Origin: Fodinibius salicampi
GTDB lineage: Bacteria; Bacteroidota; Rhodothermia; Balneolales; Balneolaceae
Reading direction: 5' to 3'
Length of the DNA: 64,000 nt
NCBI RefSeq assembly: GCF_039545095.1
Contig: NZ_BAABRS010000001.1
Span: 1,240,001 to 1,304,000 of the forward strand
Shown here: positions 8,710-63,428 of the stretch, piece after piece
How positions within the stretch are numbered: the first letter of the stretch is position 1
Layout of the letters: each line of letters starts with the position of its first letter
Made by a program: the position numbers and the translations under genes
The notes under the pieces: generated by a model
The model's input: only the letters and a program-made list of their open reading frames with translations
The model's database searches: none
What the model was told of the DNA's origin: nothing

Positions 8710-9324
8710 TTATGCGGTAATTGTTCCCGGAAAAACGTGATCTTCTAAAAGTTCCTGTAATTTTGCCCGCCCGCGGTTAATACGCGACTTAACCGTACCC
8801 ATGGGCAGATCAGCAATTTCGGAAATTTCATCATAGGAAAGCTGCTGGATATCCCGCAGAACAACCACCTCACGGAAATCTTCGCTGAGCTCCATAAGGG
8901 CCTTTTCCAGCTCATCCATGCACATTTTTTCGTGTAAAACATCGTCAGGAAGGATATCTGGATCCTCCAGCTTCATAGGACGATCTTCGGAATCGTCGGG
9001 ATCCTTATGGATGGTGACTTTTGTCATCCGTTTTTTCTTTTTGTACAAACTTTTCGCCAGGTTGATGGCGATAGTGTACATCCAAGTAGAAAATTTAGCT
9101 ATACGCTCATAGGAATGCCGACTGCGAAAGACACGAAAGAACGTCTCCTGTACTAAATCTTCACAGTCGTTGTGATTGTGCGTATATCGATATAAGAAAT
9201 TGTGCAACCGATCTTGGTAGCGTTCGACTAATAAGTTAAAAGCTTGCTCGTAACCAGATTGAAAATGCTCCATTAAGTCTTCATCAGATAACTGCTGAAG
9301 TTCTGCTCTGGATAATGCTTCCAT
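8710..9324 (-). CDS. ECF-type RNA polymerase sigma factor
   Basis: 204 aa. Sigma region 2 is at about 20-95 (LVERYQDRLHNFLYRYT, DLVQETFFRVFRS, FSTWMYTIAINLA). A charged linker follows, then region 4 at about 130-190 (LSEDFREVVVLRDIQQLSYD, PMGTVKSRINRGRAKLQ). There is no region 1 or 3. It directs polymerase to stress or envelope promoters. The partner is probably the small downstream protein. An 11-residue acidic tail follows region 4. Confidence 0.92.
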   Translation of the reverse strand: MEALSRAELQQLSDEDLMEHFQSGYEQAFNLLVERYQDRLHNFLYRYTHNHNDCEDLVQETFFRVFRSRHSYERIAKFSTWMYTIAINLAKSLYKKKKRMTKVTIHKDPDDSEDRPMKLEDPDILPDDVLHEKMCMDELEKALMELSEDFREVVVLRDIQQLSYDEISEIADLPMGTVKSRINRGRAKLQELLEDHVFPGTITA

Positions 9325-55768: not shown

Positions 55769-55930
55769 TTAGAGGGATACCATCTCTTTAATAGCTATTT
55801 CAACCTGAAGATAGAAGATCCATTCCGGATACTTCAGTAACCGTAGCCAGAGGTCAATAACCTCATCTTCTGAAAGTTGCCCCCGAAGATATTTCGTGAT
55901 GTCTCTTGAAAGTATTTTATTTTGATCCAA
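55769..55930 (-). CDS. Small ORF behind an ECF-like promoter
   Basis: 53 aa with a TTG start: DQNKILSRDITKYLRGQLSE, then DEVIDLWLRLLKYPEWIFYL, ending KEMVSL. The DITKYLRGQLSEDE segment resembles the N-terminal helices of anti-sigma-like proteins. It lies about 23 nt after the predicted start of the two-box promoter at 55960-55988. No ATG is available, so it may be a truncated relic. Confidence 0.45.
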   Translation of the reverse strand: MDQNKILSRDITKYLRGQLSEDEVIDLWLRLLKYPEWIFYLQVEIAIKEMVSL

Positions 55931-55959: not shown

Positions 55960-55988
55960 GTAAGTACCTTTTGGGAAGCAATCCTTAC
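55960..55988 (-). promoter_or_regulatory. Two-box promoter-like motif, copy 1
   Basis: Minus strand: GTAAGGATT (55988-55980), 11-nt spacer, GGTACTTAC (55968-55960). The same pair occurs at 56085-56113 and 62082-62111. Box spacing and sequence suggest an ECF-sigma-type promoter. Downstream is the small ORF at 55769-55930. Confidence 0.5.
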
Positions 55989-56010
55989 AAAAAATCTTAA
56001 GATAATTGAC

Positions 56011-56078
56011 AAAAAGTAAAAGCCCTGCACCTTTCACAATGCAGGACTTATCTCATTTCATCAAAGAGAAATACATTC
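56011..56078 (-). ncRNA. Candidate small RNA 1 (about 68 nt)
   Basis: Begins about 7 nt after copy 2 of the two-box motif and ends in a hairpin CCTGCA/TGCAGG (56040-56045 and 56024-56029, extended by one G-C pair) followed by TTTTACTTTTTG. There is no reading frame. The same arrangement is found at 62010-62075. Confidence 0.45.
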
Positions 56079-56084
56079 TCATAA

Positions 56085-56113
56085 GTAAGTACGTTTTAAG
56101 GGCTAATCCTTAC
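56085..56113 (-). promoter_or_regulatory. Two-box promoter-like motif, copy 2
   Basis: Minus strand: GTAAGGATT (56113-56105), 11-nt spacer, CGTACTTAC (56093-56085). Directs transcription away from the LexA-like gene into the candidate small RNA at 56011-56078. Confidence 0.5.
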
Positions 56114-56151
56114 AAATTTTTTTAAAAAATATATCGATTGCCTTATATTTC

Positions 56152-56166
56152 CATAAATCGTTCATA
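56152..56166 (+). promoter_or_regulatory. Operator-like CATAAATCGTTCATA upstream of the LexA-like gene
   Basis: 15-bp sequence identical to 57147-57161 in front of the Y-family polymerase gene. It has an imperfect dyad (ATAAA-TCG-TTCAT). It ends 11 bp before the ATG, where repressor binding would block transcription. Candidate binding site of the LexA-like protein. Confidence 0.65.
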
Positions 56167-56177
56167 ACTGTATCGTC

Positions 56178-56816
56178 ATGATTACGAAAGACCTTACTAA
56201 TAAACAGTCGAAATTCTTCCGGCACCTGCTGGAATACGCTCGTGATCACGGCAACCTTCCTTCCTATCAGACAATTATGGAGCATACCTGGATCACGTCT
56301 AAGAATGGAGTTCACCAGTATTTTAAAGCGCTCTGTGATAAAAACTACCTTCAGTCAACCGGCTGGGGTGGTTATGAGCTGCACCCCTCAAAACAGTTCC
56401 TGGTTGACAGCCCGGAAAATCCTATTCCCATTCGGGGGATTATTACCGCCGGAGCCATGCAGGAGGCCGTGGATACGGATTTGGGAAGCCTGTCCATTCG
56501 GAACCTGTTCCCCCAGGCACAATCGCCGTACTGCGTCCGTGTGTCTGGGACCAGCATGGAGGAGGCCGGAATCCATGACGGGGATCTGGTAATTCTGGAT
56601 GACAGCCCCATTACGGACGGGGATATTGGTGCTATTCTGTATGATGGGCAGACCACGCTCAAAGAGATCCGTAAAAGCGACCGGCAGGTCGTGCTATACC
56701 CCAAAAGCTCCAATCACAGACCGATCATTATAGAACCCGATGAATTTGAGGAGATTCGGGTACTGGGCAAGTATATCGCACATTTTCATGATGGGAAGGT
56801 CCGGTATGTCAATTAA
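56178..56816 (+). CDS. LexA-like self-cleaving repressor (S24 peptidase)
   Basis: 212 aa. N-terminal winged helix (about 8-72: FFRHLLEYARDHGNLPSYQTI, a LexA-type DNA-binding domain). Cleavage site A91-G92 in IITAGAMQ, nucleophile S126 in GTSMEEAG and general-base K162 in TTLKEI have the spacing of E. coli LexA. Heads a DNA-damage cassette with a divergently encoded small protein, a Y-family polymerase and an SRAP protein. Could be the main LexA or a cassette-specific paralogue. Confidence 0.9.
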   Translation: MITKDLTNKQSKFFRHLLEYARDHGNLPSYQTIMEHTWITSKNGVHQYFKALCDKNYLQSTGWGGYELHPSKQFLVDSPENPIPIRGIITAGAMQEAVDTDLGSLSIRNLFPQAQSPYCVRVSGTSMEEAGIHDGDLVILDDSPITDGDIGAILYDGQTTLKEIRKSDRQVVLYPKSSNHRPIIIEPDEFEEIRVLGKYIAHFHDGKVRYVN

Positions 56817-57117
56817 ACAGTAGTTCGTCATCAAATTCGTATAGCAGAATCCATGTGATTTTGCCGCTGTCATACACCATTTCAAAGAACCGGTCTTCGG
56901 TGGTCCGTACTACAAAGTGTACATGAAGGGTATCGCCCTTCCGGGCGGCATAGGATTTGCGGATCTGGGCAATCTCAAAAATTTTCTTGTTCGCACGTTT
57001 GAAGCTTAGCGGTTCAATGCGCTTATGGGTCCAGTCCCGGCCCATGGACTCATCATCATCCTTAAATCCCCGGTATATGGCATTGACATTGATCTTTTCC
57101 TGTATAAGCGTTTGCAT
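56809..57117 (-). CDS. Unknown 102-aa protein of the DNA-damage cassette
   Basis: 102 aa from ATG 57117 (24 bp inside a longer frame). Mixed beta/alpha, with basic middle (RIEPLSFKRANKK, RKSYAARKGDTLHVHFVVR) and an acidic end (YEFDDELLFN). No family is recognised. Its stop overlaps the convergent LexA-like gene by 8 bp and its start faces the polymerase gene across the shared operator, so co-regulation is likely. Confidence 0.7.
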   Translation of the reverse strand: MQTLIQEKINVNAIYRGFKDDDESMGRDWTHKRIEPLSFKRANKKIFEIAQIRKSYAARKGDTLHVHFVVRTTEDRFFEMVYDSGKITWILLYEFDDELLFN

Positions 57118-57135
57118 GGCCCTGATTATTCGGTA

Positions 57136-57166
57136 TTGCAAAAGTACATAAATCGTTCATATAATA
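57136..57166. promoter_or_regulatory. Shared operator and promoter of polymerase and 102-aa gene
   Basis: CATAAATCGTTCATA at 57147-57161 is identical to the site at 56152. On the plus strand it falls between TTGCAA and TATAAT, 18 bp apart, as a repressor site inside a sigma-70-like promoter would. On the minus strand TACTTTTG matches the TAnnTTTG element for the divergent gene. Confidence 0.65.
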
Positions 57167-57196
57167 TAGGAGAGCTTTCATGTTAAATGCAATGCC

Positions 57197-58537
57197 ATGA
57201 GCAAAGAAATTTCGATCGATACCGGCACGTATGATGTCAACGAGAATGTGCACAAGATTACTGATTACCGGTGCGTGAGTGCCGACATGCAGCACACCTC
57301 GATCAAGGAGAGGCTGTACCTGCATCTGGATATGAACTGCTTCTACGCCCAGGTGGAGCAGCTTAGCTATGATCTGTATGGGATGCCAATATATATCGGA
57401 GGCTGGTATAAAGGCGACAAAGGCATCCCCCGGGGTATTGTGGCTACCAGCTCTTACGAAGCCCGTGCCTTTGGGGTCAAGACCGGCATGAGCGCCTATG
57501 AGGCGGAACAGCTTTGCCCCTACCTGATTGGACTGCAGGCCCACTATGAAAAATACAAGGGCGTGAGCCGGGAGATTGAAGCGGTGCTTAATGACTTTGC
57601 CATGGACGTGGAAAAGTACAGCATGGATGAGTATTTTCTTGATCTGAATTTCATGAAGGATAAGGACCGGACGGAAATCAAGGAGTACGGGGAGCAGCTC
57701 CAGGAGGTACTTTACCGGGAAACCGGACTGGTCTGCTCAGTAGGCATCAGCTATTCAAAAACCTATTCCAAGCTGGCCAGTGAATTGCATAAACCCAAAG
57801 GATTAACATTGGTCCTGAACAGTCAGGATGCACAAGATACGCTATGGCCGCTGGAACTGGATGAAGTCTGGGGCATTGGCCGCAAGCGGTATCACAAGCT
57901 GAAAGGGCAGAATATCCATACCATTGGGGAGGCCATTAACAGAGGGTATCCACCCTTTCAGGATCTGTTTGGTCCATATTTTGGTAAAATTATGTGGGAG
58001 ATGGTAGCCGGAAAGGACCGGGCAAAGGTACTGACCGACCAGCAACTGATCCCCAAGCAGCTCAACTACATGCATACCTTTTCCAACTGGTCAGATGATT
58101 TTACCCATATCAAGGGCGAGATTATGAAGGGCGTCGGCCAGCTATGCTACCGGATGCGGGGCTATAACCTACGGGCCCGGCAATACTTTTGCTACCTGCG
58201 GATTCAGGATAGCAGTAATAAGGGCCTTTCGTTCCGATTTAATACCGAAGGATTTACCAACCTTGATGATTATGTGTTTTATGAATGCATGAAAAAGGCT
58301 GCTCCCCGCATCAAGGGACTGTTAAAAGGAGGGCATACCCTGCGGGGCATTGGCGTTGGGACGGTCAAGCATGACCACTCCGGCCAGCAGGAACTATTTT
58401 TCCGGGAGGACAACCGGAAGCGCCGGTTTTGCCTGGTCCAGGATGCCATCAATAACCACTATGGTCAGCAGATGATCCAAAAAGCATCGGTACTGGATTC
58501 TGTCCCCGGAAAAACGCATTTTTTAGATCGGAGCTAA
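57197..58537 (+). CDS. dinB: Y-family translesion DNA polymerase
   Basis: 446 aa. An N-terminal extension of about 40 residues precedes LYLHLDMNCFYAQVEQ (metal-binding Asp) and YSMDEYFLDL (catalytic Asp-Glu). The fingers-thumb region with GIGRKRYHKLKGQ (HhH) and the little-finger domain (about 270-430) follow. Copies damaged DNA at the cost of mutations. The position beside LexA-like and SRAP genes and the shared operator support SOS control. There is no clear C-terminal clamp-binding motif. Confidence 0.92.
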   Translation: MSKEISIDTGTYDVNENVHKITDYRCVSADMQHTSIKERLYLHLDMNCFYAQVEQLSYDLYGMPIYIGGWYKGDKGIPRGIVATSSYEARAFGVKTGMSAYEAEQLCPYLIGLQAHYEKYKGVSREIEAVLNDFAMDVEKYSMDEYFLDLNFMKDKDRTEIKEYGEQLQEVLYRETGLVCSVGISYSKTYSKLASELHKPKGLTLVLNSQDAQDTLWPLELDEVWGIGRKRYHKLKGQNIHTIGEAINRGYPPFQDLFGPYFGKIMWEMVAGKDRAKVLTDQQLIPKQLNYMHTFSNWSDDFTHIKGEIMKGVGQLCYRMRGYNLRARQYFCYLRIQDSSNKGLSFRFNTEGFTNLDDYVFYECMKKAAPRIKGLLKGGHTLRGIGVGTVKHDHSGQQELFFREDNRKRRFCLVQDAINNHYGQQMIQKASVLDSVPGKTHFLDRS

Positions 58538-58552
58538 CTAAATCAGATAACT

Positions 58553-59227
58553 ATGTGTGGAAGATACACCTTAGACAAGGACGAGCAGGAGCTGGAAGGT
58601 TATTTTGATGCTGTAATGGAGGATTTTGAGCAGTTTGGACCGAACTACAATGTCGCACCTTCGCATACCATGCCGGTAGTGGGGCAAAACCGGGAAGGAG
58701 AGCGAACGATCCGCCCCTTCCGCTGGGGCCTACTTCCATTCTGGGCCAAAGAGGAAAAGGTCAGTTATAGCATGTTTATTGCAAAGGCGGAATCAATAGA
58801 CAGCAAAAAATCTTATAAACAATCCTTCGAGCGTCACCGGTGTCTGGTCCCGGCCAGTGGGTTTTATGAGTGGACCGGACCGAAGGGGGATAGAACGCCC
58901 TATTATATTTACCCGACCCATGAGCCGTTGTTTTCTTTTGCGGGGATCTATAACGTCTGGGAATCCCCGGAGGGCAAGAAAATACCCACGTATAGTATCA
59001 TAACGACCGAGCCCAACCAGAAGATGGCTAATCTGCACGACCGTATGCCGGTGATGCTGCTCAAGGAAGAATGGGATGAGTGGCTGGACCCGGACAACCA
59101 TAATACCAATGCTCTGAAGGACCTGTTAAACCCATTCCCGGATGATGCGATCAACTACTACCAGATTGATAAGAAGGTGGGGAATGTCCGGAATAATTCT
59201 AAAGATTTAATAGATCCAGTTGAATAA
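58553..59227 (+). CDS. SRAP (SOS response-associated peptidase) domain protein
   Basis: 224 aa. MCGRYTL exposes the catalytic Cys2 after Met removal. NYNVAPSH (Asn), SGFYEWTG (Glu) and LHDRMPVML (His) complete the SRAP site. HMCES/YedK proteins cross-link to abasic sites in single-stranded DNA through Cys2. It begins 15 bp after the polymerase gene and is probably co-transcribed, so abasic-site shielding and translesion synthesis would be induced together. Confidence 0.95.
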   Translation: MCGRYTLDKDEQELEGYFDAVMEDFEQFGPNYNVAPSHTMPVVGQNREGERTIRPFRWGLLPFWAKEEKVSYSMFIAKAESIDSKKSYKQSFERHRCLVPASGFYEWTGPKGDRTPYYIYPTHEPLFSFAGIYNVWESPEGKKIPTYSIITTEPNQKMANLHDRMPVMLLKEEWDEWLDPDNHNTNALKDLLNPFPDDAINYYQIDKKVGNVRNNSKDLIDPVE

Positions 59228-59349
59228 AAGAATTGCACGTTACATTAATTGAAAAGGGTAAACGTATCGTTAATAATGTTATACTTACACATTTATCTGG
59301 GCACCTTGACTATATCAAACATTCAGATTTTTTAAATGACGCAATAAAT

Positions 59350-59379
59350 AAAAAACTCCCCTGCTTTTAACAGGGGAGT
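59350..59379 (-). terminator. Terminator of the beta-helix lipoprotein gene
   Basis: Stem GACTCCCCTG/CAGGGGAGT with a 7-nt loop; the minus strand continues TTTTTTATTTA. The plus side has no T-run, so the SRAP gene is not strongly terminated here. Confidence 0.9.
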
Positions 59380-59418
59380 CCTAAGACCAGTTTCAAGTAT
59401 CCTGATACATGATTCTAT

Positions 59419-60423
59419 CTAATCAATCTCAAATGGTTTCGGAAGCTTTGTATCGTCTCCCCCATCAATTAGATTAGTTCCCCATCCGGATACATCGTTT
59501 CGGATAAGTTTTGTGTTTTCAGTTCCTTGTAAAAATATACCGAAACCAGTTCCCGTATTGGATGTAATGGTATTCTGACGAATGCCATTATCTTCACTTG
59601 GATAGGCCCATACTCCAAAAATATAATTTACGTCAACTTCAGTATACGTGATCTCTATCGTATTGTGATTCACATTAGTATTATTACCTACCAGTGCTAC
59701 TCCCAGATCATTATTCCGAATCGTATTTTTTTGTACGTTAACATTGTCAGAAAAAACACCAATTCCGCTTGAAACAAAAGTGTCCTTATTATAAAAATGC
59801 CCTTCTACAAGGTTGTTCTTTATTACCCCGGAAGCTTCTTGGTCAACCTGTATCCCATTTTGAGCCCATCCGGTTGATTTCGGGCCAATACCGATTACAT
59901 TATTCCCATCAACATTTACATCTGTCCCTGCACCACGTAAAACGATCCCTGCACGATGTACACCTGTTACTTCATTATTTGTGATATTACCAGTCGCTCC
60001 ATCTTGATATGTAATTGGTACAAACTGATGTGGATAATCAGCATCAGTATTTACAGATGAATTTGCAAGTTTTACATTTGCTCCTTTTACATATATACCA
60101 TATTGCTTTGATTTTGCACCATCAAAGGTTGCATTTAATGTGACCCCATCTATCTCACCATCTTTATCAACGTAAACCCCTATATCACATGTAATATCCA
60201 ATGGGCTATTAGGCGTTTCGTTAATATAATGAGCGGTAAGGCCAACTCCCGTGTCTTGGCATTCCGTAAGGCTTGCCGTTTCTCCACTAGACATGGAAGT
60301 CGATAATATATCGTTGTTTTCGGTGTTGGTCGTTGAGTCAATGCTGGTCGTTGATTCTTCACATCCAACAGCTACAAAAACTCCAAGTACTAGTATCCCA
60401 ATTAGATTGGTTTTCTTAATCAT
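59419..60423 (-). CDS. Right-handed beta-helix lipoprotein
   Basis: 334 aa. Lipoprotein signal with lipobox VAVGC at about 17-21, a Thr/Ser/Asn-rich tether, then parallel beta-helix repeats (for example ITNNEVTGVHRAGIVLRG, IRNNDLGVALVGNNTNV, GIRQNTITSNTGTGFGIFL), as in NosD/pectate-lyase-like folds. No catalytic residues can be named. Probably surface-exposed, carbohydrate-binding or degrading. Confidence 0.8.
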   Translation of the reverse strand: MIKKTNLIGILVLGVFVAVGCEESTTSIDSTTNTENNDILSTSMSSGETASLTECQDTGVGLTAHYINETPNSPLDITCDIGVYVDKDGEIDGVTLNATFDGAKSKQYGIYVKGANVKLANSSVNTDADYPHQFVPITYQDGATGNITNNEVTGVHRAGIVLRGAGTDVNVDGNNVIGIGPKSTGWAQNGIQVDQEASGVIKNNLVEGHFYNKDTFVSSGIGVFSDNVNVQKNTIRNNDLGVALVGNNTNVNHNTIEITYTEVDVNYIFGVWAYPSEDNGIRQNTITSNTGTGFGIFLQGTENTKLIRNDVSGWGTNLIDGGDDTKLPKPFEID

Positions 60424-60734
60424 AGTTACCCCGTTTTTTTATTTTTATGCCTCTTGATATTTATACATCACTACCAAGTAAATTTAAATGCCTCCAAAGG
60501 CAAAATTAAAATAAATTAATATATGCCAAGTAATTTGATGTGAGTGCATGCTTGATGCAGTGTTTGGAAAGCCCCGTAGTAATGCCGCTACACCACATAG
60601 CATTCACAGATGGAAGCTTTTATATAGGAACCTGATGCACTACTCAGATAGCAGATCAGTACAAACCCACTTCACCTACGATAAACAATACTGTGTTTAC
60701 CAATCTAGTCAAAGCCGACTGGAAAATCTGTGAC

Positions 60735-60900
60735 TTAGTTCCGGGTCTTGTCAAGCAGATAGTTCTCACCTACATCTAGGTACTTCATTTCAACAAATCC
60801 TCATTCCAAACCTTTAGCTGGCAACCGGTGTCGTTGATCAAGCTCGGATTATCATACCTGCTGGTATTCAAATTCTACCTCATAAAAAGTCCAGCACCGG
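60735..60900 (-). mobile_element. Second copy of the IS110/IS1111-like non-coding end
   Basis: Read on the minus strand, this matches 53990-54120 over about 120 bp, including ACACCGGTTGCCAGCTAAAG (identical), GTAGGTGAGAACTATCTGCT-like and the final TTGAC. It lacks the GACATTTTCC end and any transposase. The 60424-61047 gap otherwise holds no gene and only low-complexity AT-rich DNA. Confidence 0.6.
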
Positions 60901-61047
60901 TTTAGATGAGAGACTTTATTAACTAGCCAATCCTATACGCAGCTATTAAGACCGTTTGAAGAGAAAATATTTACAAATTTTTGGAAGAACTTCTTTTTAT
61001 GTCCAGATTATAGGTCTACTGCTACCTGCGATTAAATTCCATCAGTT

Positions 61048-61977
61048 ATGAAACCGAACCTATTTCTATTATGTATCGGCTGCTTGTTGGCAGCCTCCGT
61101 TGCCAGCGGGCAAAACTATTCCGACTATGACCAACAATTTGTGGACGAGCATATCTACGAAGGTATGCCCAGCTTTGATAATATTCATATACGGCAGGCT
61201 TACATCCTCTCTTATAATCACACCCATCGGATCCCGAATTGGGTCGCCTATCATATTGGCTTGGATTACACGAATACCGTCCCGCGATATGGCATCTTTG
61301 CCCAGTATCGCACGGACTGGAACATTCCCAATCCGGTCTTCGACCACGAATATGACGGGGTGTACGACGGGGGGAGCGGTTATGCCCGCGGGCACCTGGC
61401 TCCATTTAATATATCAGGAGGCGATAGGGACGCAGACGGCCTGCTAGGGGTGGGCGATACGAACGGGGACGGCCTCATTACCAAGGAAGATATGATTGGC
61501 CGGGATCGCGAGGAATATATCGAAGACGCCGATGAAATCACCAGAGTCTATCAAATCAACCAACTCTCAAATATGACGCCCCAGGACCAAAATGGTTTCA
61601 ATGGCGGAGCAGGGATATGGCGTGACCTCGAGCGATATATCCAGGGGACCATTGTCGAGGAGCAAAAAAAAGAGGTGTGGGTGATGGCCGGTCCGGTTTT
61701 GGGTCCCGGCGAGATGGAAAAGGTAGGCCCAAAGGAAATAACCGTCCCTCCAATGTTCTTTAAAATCGTGGTACGCAATGGGGAAAATGACCTGCCGGTC
61801 GTGTTGGCCTTTCTCCTTCCGCATCACAAAGAACCCCATGGAGAGATCGAAGACTTTTTGGTGAGCGTAGATATCATTGAAGCGATGACCGGCCTGAATT
61901 TCTTTCGAGACCTTAACGAAGCTACCGAGGATTCGCTGGAGGCCACCGACACATGGATAAACTGGAATATTTTTTAG
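61048..61977 (+). CDS. Secreted DNA/RNA non-specific endonuclease with EF-hand-like loops
   Basis: 309 aa. Signal peptide about 1-21 (VASGQ). The beta-beta-alpha metal nuclease core has YARGHLAP (112-119, the D/A-RGH motif with catalytic His) and NMTPQDQNGFN (175-185, metal-binding Asn). Between them, D126-R-D-A-D-G-L-L-G-V-G-D137 and D137-T-N-G-D-G-L-I-T-K-E-D148 are two calcium-loop sequences sharing one Asp, of dockerin/TSP3/EF-hand type. Degrades extracellular nucleic acid, for nutrients or against competitors. Confidence 0.88.
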   Translation: MKPNLFLLCIGCLLAASVASGQNYSDYDQQFVDEHIYEGMPSFDNIHIRQAYILSYNHTHRIPNWVAYHIGLDYTNTVPRYGIFAQYRTDWNIPNPVFDHEYDGVYDGGSGYARGHLAPFNISGGDRDADGLLGVGDTNGDGLITKEDMIGRDREEYIEDADEITRVYQINQLSNMTPQDQNGFNGGAGIWRDLERYIQGTIVEEQKKEVWVMAGPVLGPGEMEKVGPKEITVPPMFFKIVVRNGENDLPVVLAFLLPHHKEPHGEIEDFLVSVDIIEAMTGLNFFRDLNEATEDSLEATDTWINWNIF

Positions 61978-62009
61978 CTTTTCTTGGATATATTTCCTTA
62001 AAACATATA

Positions 62010-62075
62010 CGAATAAGAAAAGGCCAGCCGATCAAGGCTGACCTTCCCACCTCATTAAATGAGAATTTTCAACGG
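62010..62075 (-). ncRNA. Candidate small RNA 2 (about 66 nt)
   Basis: Follows copy 3 of the two-box motif and ends in AAGGTCAGCC/GGCTGGCCTT (62045-62036 and 62028-62019) followed by TTCTTATTC. Architecture and length match the candidate at 56011-56078. Confidence 0.45.
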
Positions 62076-62081
62076 CTATAG

Positions 62082-62111
62082 GCAAGTACGTTTTTAGCGG
62101 GCAATCCTTAC
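62082..62111 (-). promoter_or_regulatory. Two-box promoter-like motif, copy 3
   Basis: Minus strand: GTAAGGATT (62111-62103), 12-nt spacer, CGTACTTGC (62090-62082). Upstream sequence TCAATTATTAAGAT-like is also shared with copy 1. Confidence 0.5.
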
Positions 62112-62723
62112 ATAAAACATCTTAATAATTGATCCATTCCGTCTTTATTAAGGAGTTCTAATGTTACCTCTCTCCTATTCGGTCGTCCTATGATTGTAAT
62201 GAGGTAGAAACGCTGCTTGTGTGCAGAGCTTTATTACAGACGGTTAATTTAAAAAGCCCCGGCTAGGCAAGGCCGGGGCTTTATTTTTAGCATTTACACG
62301 GTGGAATTTTACATACCATCAGAAGTATTAGAAAATATTTTCATCCGTCAACCCCGGAATCCTCTCCCCTTTCTAAAAAATATTTCATAACTGGCGAAAA
62401 AAATCATAAAAAAAATATTAGTAATAATCGGCCTTTACGTGAATTAAACAGCTATTTTAAGGCTAATATCTCGCATATCAGTAACTATAAAGAAAATTTT
62501 TTTGTAACAAATCGCTATTTCAACACTCTTGTATAGTAGGAGCACGGGTATAAATCATTAGAGAAGTCGAACTTAAAAACGTAAGTCAAGAACGTAGACG
62601 TAGCTTCGGCTGCGTCTATTATAAACAAATAAAACCCGGCATCAGAGAGACGTTGGATCCTTTCGCAATACCATCTACAGCGACTCGCTGCGGGCCGGCC
62701 AACCACAACTAAATAATATACTT
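62112..62723. other. Intergenic region upstream of the HU/DUF4469 gene
   Basis: About 610 bp without a gene. A strong GC hairpin AAAGCCCCGGC/GCCGGGGCTTT (62253-62282) with T-rich flanks on both sides acts as a bidirectional terminator. A second hairpin AGACGTAGC/GCTGCGTCT lies at about 62598-62616. The remainder is AT-rich and probably holds the promoter of the next gene. Confidence 0.55.
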
Positions 62724-63428
62724 ATGTCACTAGAATATTATTTAATTCCAAACAATATGACTGACAACCCGGATGACTACCGGGCGGTGAGTCGAAACAG
62801 TAAAAGCTATAATCTTGAGGACGTATTCAAAAACATGACCCGCGAGGGATCCACCGTTACTACAGCTGAAGCCATGGCGGTGTTCGAGGAGATCACCCGG
62901 GGTATCATTGGAATGTTGGAAGAAGGCCATGCAATCAATACGCCCCTGTTCAATATCTCATCAAGTATAACCGGGGTCTTCGAGGAAGAAGAGGATCGGT
63001 TTGATCCCAATCGGCACCAGGTACAGATAAACCTCAATTCCGGCGTGCGGCTTAAAGACCTTTCCAATACGATCACACCGGAACGGGTCGAGGGTTCCTC
63101 TCCCGTTCCCACCCTCAAATACCTGCAGGATAATATTTCCGGCACCCAGAATGAGCTGCTTACACCCGGCGGCGGCGCGCGTATTAGAGGGGCTCGGCTC
63201 AAGTACGATCATGAGGATTCCCAGCAGGGCATCTTTTTTATCCATACCGGGGATCAAACCGAGCACCGGGTGGATTTTGAACCACTGCGCAATATGCCCC
63301 AGGACCTCATCTTTACGCTTCCGGACCTGCCGGCCGGGGAATACGAGATGGAAGTACGATGCGTATTAAAGAGCACCTCAGATATACGTACGGGCAGCCT
63401 GCCTGATCTACTGACCGTAGAACCGTGA
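62724..63428 (+). CDS. HU-like DNA-binding protein with DUF4469 domain
   Basis: 234 aa. The N-terminal part (about 1-115: YYLIPNNMTDNPDDYRAV, VTTAEAMAVFEEITRGI, INLNSGVRLKDL) is the HU-related DNA-binding fold of the HU-HIG type. The C-terminal part (about 130-234: GGGARIRGARLKYDHED, LPAGEYEMEVRC) matches the beta-sandwich DUF4469. Common in Bacteroidota as a nucleoid-associated protein of unknown role. A terminator follows after a 23-bp tandem array. Confidence 0.85.
   Translation: MSLEYYLIPNNMTDNPDDYRAVSRNSKSYNLEDVFKNMTREGSTVTTAEAMAVFEEITRGIIGMLEEGHAINTPLFNISSSITGVFEEEEDRFDPNRHQVQINLNSGVRLKDLSNTITPERVEGSSPVPTLKYLQDNISGTQNELLTPGGGARIRGARLKYDHEDSQQGIFFIHTGDQTEHRVDFEPLRNMPQDLIFTLPDLPAGEYEMEVRCVLKSTSDIRTGSLPDLLTVEP

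Follow-up and report, generated by a model that had tools for sequence, protein, structure and literature searches.

A candidate ECF sigma factor promoter linking small RNAs, a mini anti-sigma protein and competence genes in Fodinibius salicampi

Three two-box sites and the elements behind them

The window analysed here, a stretch of 64,000 nt of the Fodinibius salicampi genome, contains three exact minus-strand copies of the pattern GTAAGGATT-N11/12-SGTACTT, at 55962-55988, 56087-56113 and 62084-62111, and no copy was found in 100 dinucleotide shuffles of the window. The three leftward-facing two-box motifs described in an earlier note on this DNA are thus real features of it. The first element, promoter 1 (56085-56114, minus strand), reads TGTAAGGATT-N12-GTACTTAC with an A/T tract on its 5′ side and matches the genome- and genus-wide consensus. 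It would drive W2, a predicted small RNA of ∼69 nt (56013-56081, minus strand; fold z −4.1) with a terminator at 56049-56020; the start of W2 was placed a few nucleotides past the −10 box and its end at the U tract. Promoter 2 (55960-55989, minus strand) precedes a 53-aa ORF with a TTG start (55769-55930, minus strand), which corresponds to a free anti-sigma N-terminal domain without the membrane part, and the same layout is found at loci L022 and L035. Promoter 3 (62082-62112, minus strand) has the form TGTAAGGATT-N13-GTACTTGC, with a spacer one base longer, and would drive W1, a predicted small RNA of ∼66 nt (62014-62079, minus strand; fold z −4.0) with a terminator at 62048-62017.

Genes for a LexA/UmuD-like S24 peptidase, a Y-family polymerase and an SRAP peptidase (56178-58537 and 58553-59227) adjoin the W2 cassette; the first gene of this cluster starts 64 nt from promoter 1 and runs in the opposite direction, and comparable genes are found close to L010 and L040, two sites of the W1 type. 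On the plus strand, 61048-61977 encodes a DNA/RNA non-specific endonuclease (PF01223) that seems to carry a signal peptide. This gene converges on W1, the end of which is ∼37 nt from its 3′ end.

The hairpins with U tracts that had been noted behind two of the copies are present at the 56085 and 62082 sites, with stems of 12 and 13 pairs, respectively, and give predicted RNAs of ∼66-70 nt. The same promoter precedes the paralogs of W2, which occur at L024 and L032 in this genome and at L101 in G007, and the same promoter type precedes those of W1, at L026, L029 and L040 of this genome. RNA models of W1 and W2 scored their own paralogs strongly and other genomes of the genus more weakly, some of these matches being without the promoter; clear relatives were seen in this genome and a few others, and weak W1-like matches without the promoter in six genomes of the genus. 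A conserved W1-like hairpin RNA (GGCGTCTCTCTTGATGAATAGTGGAGG...) without the sigma promoter is found at L199, L200, L201 and L202 (in G002, G008, G005 and G003, respectively).

A search for terminators downstream of the motif, as the earlier note had proposed, found ∼9 sites in the genome that are followed within ∼100 nt by a strong terminator and so would give hairpin-ended RNAs. The RNA families comprise W1, W2, a leader found before recN in seven genomes and another found before a secreted protein gene in eight, and the hairpin of this last leader has compensatory changes at 7 of its 13 pairs over the 8 genomes. The sequence AGCCGUUGA recurs in several of the RNAs and leaders. Rfam gave no match in the window besides two tRNAs, and pairing between the small RNAs and 23 regulon leaders was not enriched relative to shuffled RNAs or to other genes. 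The possibility that W2 encodes a leaderless micropeptide (ATG AGA ATG ...) was rejected, because the second codon of the paralog L032 is a stop. For W1 and W2, a promoter of their own, an intrinsic terminator and related copies elsewhere are all present, and we have moderate confidence that they would be found as discrete transcripts. Our working guess is that the small RNAs are short base-pairing regulators made during competence.

The 53-aa protein matches a profile of 28 anti-sigma N-termini with an E-value of 7e-14, its paralogs scoring similarly, and is 43% identical over 46 aa to the anti-sigma of the same genome. The earlier description of an anti-sigma-like small ORF behind one motif copy therefore holds for 55930-55769, behind the 55960 site. 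Free mini anti-sigma copies number three in this genome, with a few in other genomes of the genus. The N-terminal part present in the 53-aa protein is presumably the region that binds the sigma factor. Since the protein would be driven by the sigma factor's own promoter type and is without a membrane sensor, its arrangement suggests, with moderate confidence, a sigma-induced off-switch, that is, a delayed inhibitor.

The promoter and its predicted regulon

The genome-wide two-box search that had been proposed gave 18 copies, against 0 for a reversed-pattern control. A fuller form with a variable −10 box, TGTAAGGAWT-N12-GNNCTTAC, has 30 exact copies in the genome and 0 exact copies when reversed. 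Across 12 genomes of the genus there are 5-30 promoter copies each, and the reversed controls were 0 throughout. The consensus consists of an invariant −35 box, TGTAAGG(AWT), a spacer of ∼12 nt and a −10 box, G(G/A/T)(T/A)C(T/A)TAC, for which two subclasses, GTACTTAC and GGTCTTAC, exist within the genome. An A/T tract lies 5′ of the boxes, its last 15 nt being 88% A/T compared with 56% for the window. The three window motifs are most likely promoters of one particular alternative (ECF) sigma factor, and our confidence in the identity of the promoter and in the content of its regulon is high.

The sites directly precede, in this genome or its relatives, a set of genes that includes those for ComEA, ComFC, ComM/YifB, RadC, RecN, RecA, ComEC and an integron integrase, as assigned by NCBIfam, and for HU-like DNA-binding proteins, as assigned by Pfam; recF and recQ are also among them. 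Conservation was followed at loci chosen for the gene. In a comM set that covers 30 genomes (29 from within the family and one from a second family) and was chosen without the full motif, TGTAAGG is present upstream in 30/30 loci, 59-78 nt before the ATG in 29 and 176 nt before it in one. For comEC, also chosen first, the promoter is at one fixed position in 10 of 12 genomes of the genus. The promoter was found within 700 nt upstream of dprA in none of the 12 genus genomes, which serves as a negative control, indicating that the box search does not match everywhere, and also means that the regulon reproduces the Firmicute competence regulons only in part. Judged by promoter presence, comEA, comEC, comF and comM share one promoter type. 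Most of the sites lie before genes for DNA uptake, recombination or nucleoid proteins, and the small RNAs make up one branch of the predicted regulon. The earlier idea of a small-RNA regulon under an ECF sigma factor therefore stands as far as an ECF-type promoter with small RNAs is concerned, but its membership has to be redrawn, the regulon consisting mainly of competence and recombination genes.

Several of these genes have features of their own. The integron integrase of this genome (TIGR02249, 450.7 bits against a cut-off of 265; contig G000:C5, locus L259:3392-4405, minus strand) lies behind the sigma promoter, and several same-strand genes on its other side could be a cassette array. 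The comM gene of this genome (L048/L289, from G000:C2:127138 on) is shortened to 263 aa, compared with ∼520 in relatives; ∼220 residues match YifB and the rest diverges. Many HU-DNA_bdg/DUF4469 proteins are encoded behind the promoter (L015, L023, L025, L038, L045, L050, L103, L111, L131 and L152), and the copy in the window (62724-63428, plus strand) is without a motif directly upstream.

Other interpretations of the sites and of the RNAs behind them can be compared against these data. In the strict pattern, GTAAG-N19-CTTAC forms a perfect inverted pair, as would be expected of a dyad operator for a dimeric transcription factor. However, the comM sites, which were not selected on the −10 box, retain CTTAC in only 14 of 30 cases (CATAC, CTAAC and others taking its place) while TGTAAGG is kept throughout, so the dyad is not conserved; this loss fits a directional promoter better than an operator, and the orientation of the sites and their distance to the gene are also fixed. 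We consider a dyad operator very improbable. That the copies are merely parts of a dispersed mobile repeat, the case in which the earlier note would have given up its reading, is extremely improbable. A stretch of ∼550 bp carrying W2 and the mini anti-sigma is indeed common to the window and L008 at 78% identity, with decayed parts at L017 and L006, so that this cassette has been duplicated or moved; but most other pairs of sites have nothing in common beyond the promoter and its immediate flanks, the sites overall sharing the promoter only, and orthologous promoters are kept in different families at comM and at the sigma locus, and in different genomes of the genus at comEC. More weight can be given to the possibility that the two window hairpins are attenuators or leader remnants rather than small RNAs, given the similar promoter-plus-hairpin leaders before recN and before the secreted protein gene. 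Against this, neither hairpin is directly followed by a same-strand gene, W2 being followed by the next promoter and W1 by the convergent nuclease gene that ends at 61977, and we regard the attenuator interpretation as unlikely.

The probable sigma factor and the predicted output of the regulon

The best candidate for the factor that reads the sites is P0001, a divergent ECF sigma factor of 181 aa (G000:C3:501359-501901). It scores 44.7 bits against the NCBIfam sigma70-ECF model (cut-off 42.9; residues 19-174 of 181) and is called divergent because its score against Pfam region 2, 19.8, is below the cut-off of 24. The gene on the 3′ side of P0001 and the motif encodes P0002, which is 262 aa long and has a hydrophobic stretch (identified by eye) and TPR repeats, as expected for a membrane anti-sigma. 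In all 12 of the genus genomes, the promoter lies across the stop codon of the sigma gene or immediately after it, upstream of the anti-sigma start; in more distant families TGTAAGG is mostly kept at the sigma/anti-sigma locus (in most families sampled) and the −10 box drifts. Within the genus the locus is situated between scpA and ruvB. Almost every genome searched within the order has a member of the P0001 family, several small genomes of a single genus being without one; outside the order the matches are weak, so that the family is nearly confined to it. G015 is the sole genome of 59 without the sigma factor and also the sole one without a comM match. It is this position and co-conservation that make P0001 the best candidate, the motif being near neither of two other ECF genes, and we assign the reading of the motif to P0001 with high confidence on these genomic grounds.

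The two other ECF factors, that at 8710-9324 and the P0001 paralog at C2:557986, nevertheless exist in the genome. The earlier note had put forward the first as the sigma factor, which is probably wrong, as no copy of the motif is near it, and the paralog was rejected as a reader of the sites on the same grounds. With two −10 subclasses in the genome, two sigma factors with a common −35 box are conceivable, the other perhaps reading the GTACTTAC subclass only. However, the promoter in front of the P0001 anti-sigma gene carries GTACTTAC as its −10 box in this genome as well as in G028, and GGTCTTAC or GATCTTAC in relatives, and because of this variation one sigma factor could plausibly read both subclasses. 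A different sigma factor at the sites is accordingly judged improbable. A related anti-sigma-like ORF lies ∼5 kb from the paralogous ECF gene, with a large gene between them (G000:C2:552812 and C2:557986), and ECF genes of this paralog type are present in most genomes of the order. As to the output of the regulon, RecA, RecN, RecF, RecQ and RadC could equally belong to a DNA-repair program. A DNA-damage or recombination-repair response, in which the com genes would have a part in repair or in the use of nutrients, would also suit the position of the sigma-anti-sigma locus beside ruvB and that of the window sites beside the umuDC-SRAP cluster, genes of which type have been reported to be LexA-controlled in Balneolaeota (PMC8565304). 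The best conserved target is comM, however, with the box in every locus of its set. ComEC, ComEA, ComFC and ComM are linked to DNA import and transformation. A repair response is, in our estimation, the less likely output, though one to be taken seriously, and we favour natural competence as the predicted output with moderate to high confidence.

A proposed competence circuit and its relation to known systems

Taken jointly, the data make it very likely that one order-specific ECF sigma factor, P0001, reads the motif and drives a competence and recombination regulon, small RNAs and the mini anti-sigma. In the circuit that we propose, P0001 would be held by the membrane anti-sigma with its TPR tail until an envelope signal releases it. 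Freed P0001 would then activate its own anti-sigma gene, comEA, comEC, comFC, comM, radC, recA, recN, the integron integrase gene and HU-like genes, and in the window the two free-standing 66-70 nt RNAs and the soluble mini anti-sigma. The mini protein, because it is missing the membrane sensor, would bind the sigma factor whatever the signal and so would shorten the pulse. A wider proposal, that a membrane-sensed ECF factor is the competence master switch of a whole non-Firmicute order, couples DNA uptake to cassette shuffling and limits itself through mini anti-sigmas and multi-copy competence RNAs, is tentative, and we put it at somewhat below even chances.

Should the proposal be true, the order would gain a candidate competence master regulator, a promoter signature from which its genes can be listed, and a sensor protein, the anti-sigma, whose signal can be sought. 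Sigma-controlled competence would extend from Firmicutes to ECF sigma factors with membrane sensors, the integron integrase would be directly linked to DNA uptake, and the circuit would be self-limiting, with the sigma factor inducing a sensor-less copy of its own inhibitor. Neither an ECF sigma factor controlling competence nor this promoter was found in the open-access literature that was searched, which is weak evidence of novelty as most subscription papers were outside its scope.

Competence driven by a sigma factor is described for Firmicutes, with ComX/SigX in Streptococcus and SigH in Staphylococcus aureus and Lactobacillus sakei (PMC4497675, PMC3486894, PMC3364868), and in pneumococcus sigma-X also takes part in competence shut-off (PMC7665891). 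The proposed circuit is alike in pairing an alternative sigma factor with a dedicated promoter for late competence and DNA-uptake genes. It differs in its sigma factor, which is of the ECF type, has a membrane anti-sigma and comes from a different lineage, and in its gene content: dprA is outside promoter control while the integron integrase, the HU-like proteins and the small RNAs are inside it. The Firmicute competence sigma factors are not known to have a membrane anti-sigma.

RpoE and SigW are encoded by ECF genes that lie beside a membrane anti-sigma gene and have an autoregulated promoter with separate −35 and −10 boxes, and the RpoE regulon includes small RNAs. P0001 resembles them in its place beside a membrane anti-sigma, its autoregulated-type promoter and the small RNAs of its predicted regulon. 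Here, however, the promoter comes after the sigma gene and drives the anti-sigma, the targets are DNA uptake and recombination genes, and there are stand-alone mini anti-sigma copies. Short structured RNAs tied to competence also have precedents in the CiaR csRNAs, Legionella RocR and Vibrio TfoR, to which W1 and W2 are likened in these respects, although the window RNAs are without an Rfam match. Finally, the integron integrase of Vibrio cholerae is SOS-controlled and is reported to respond to DNA entry (PMC8191803), whereas here the integrase shares the sigma promoter with the uptake genes, which would be a direct coupling.
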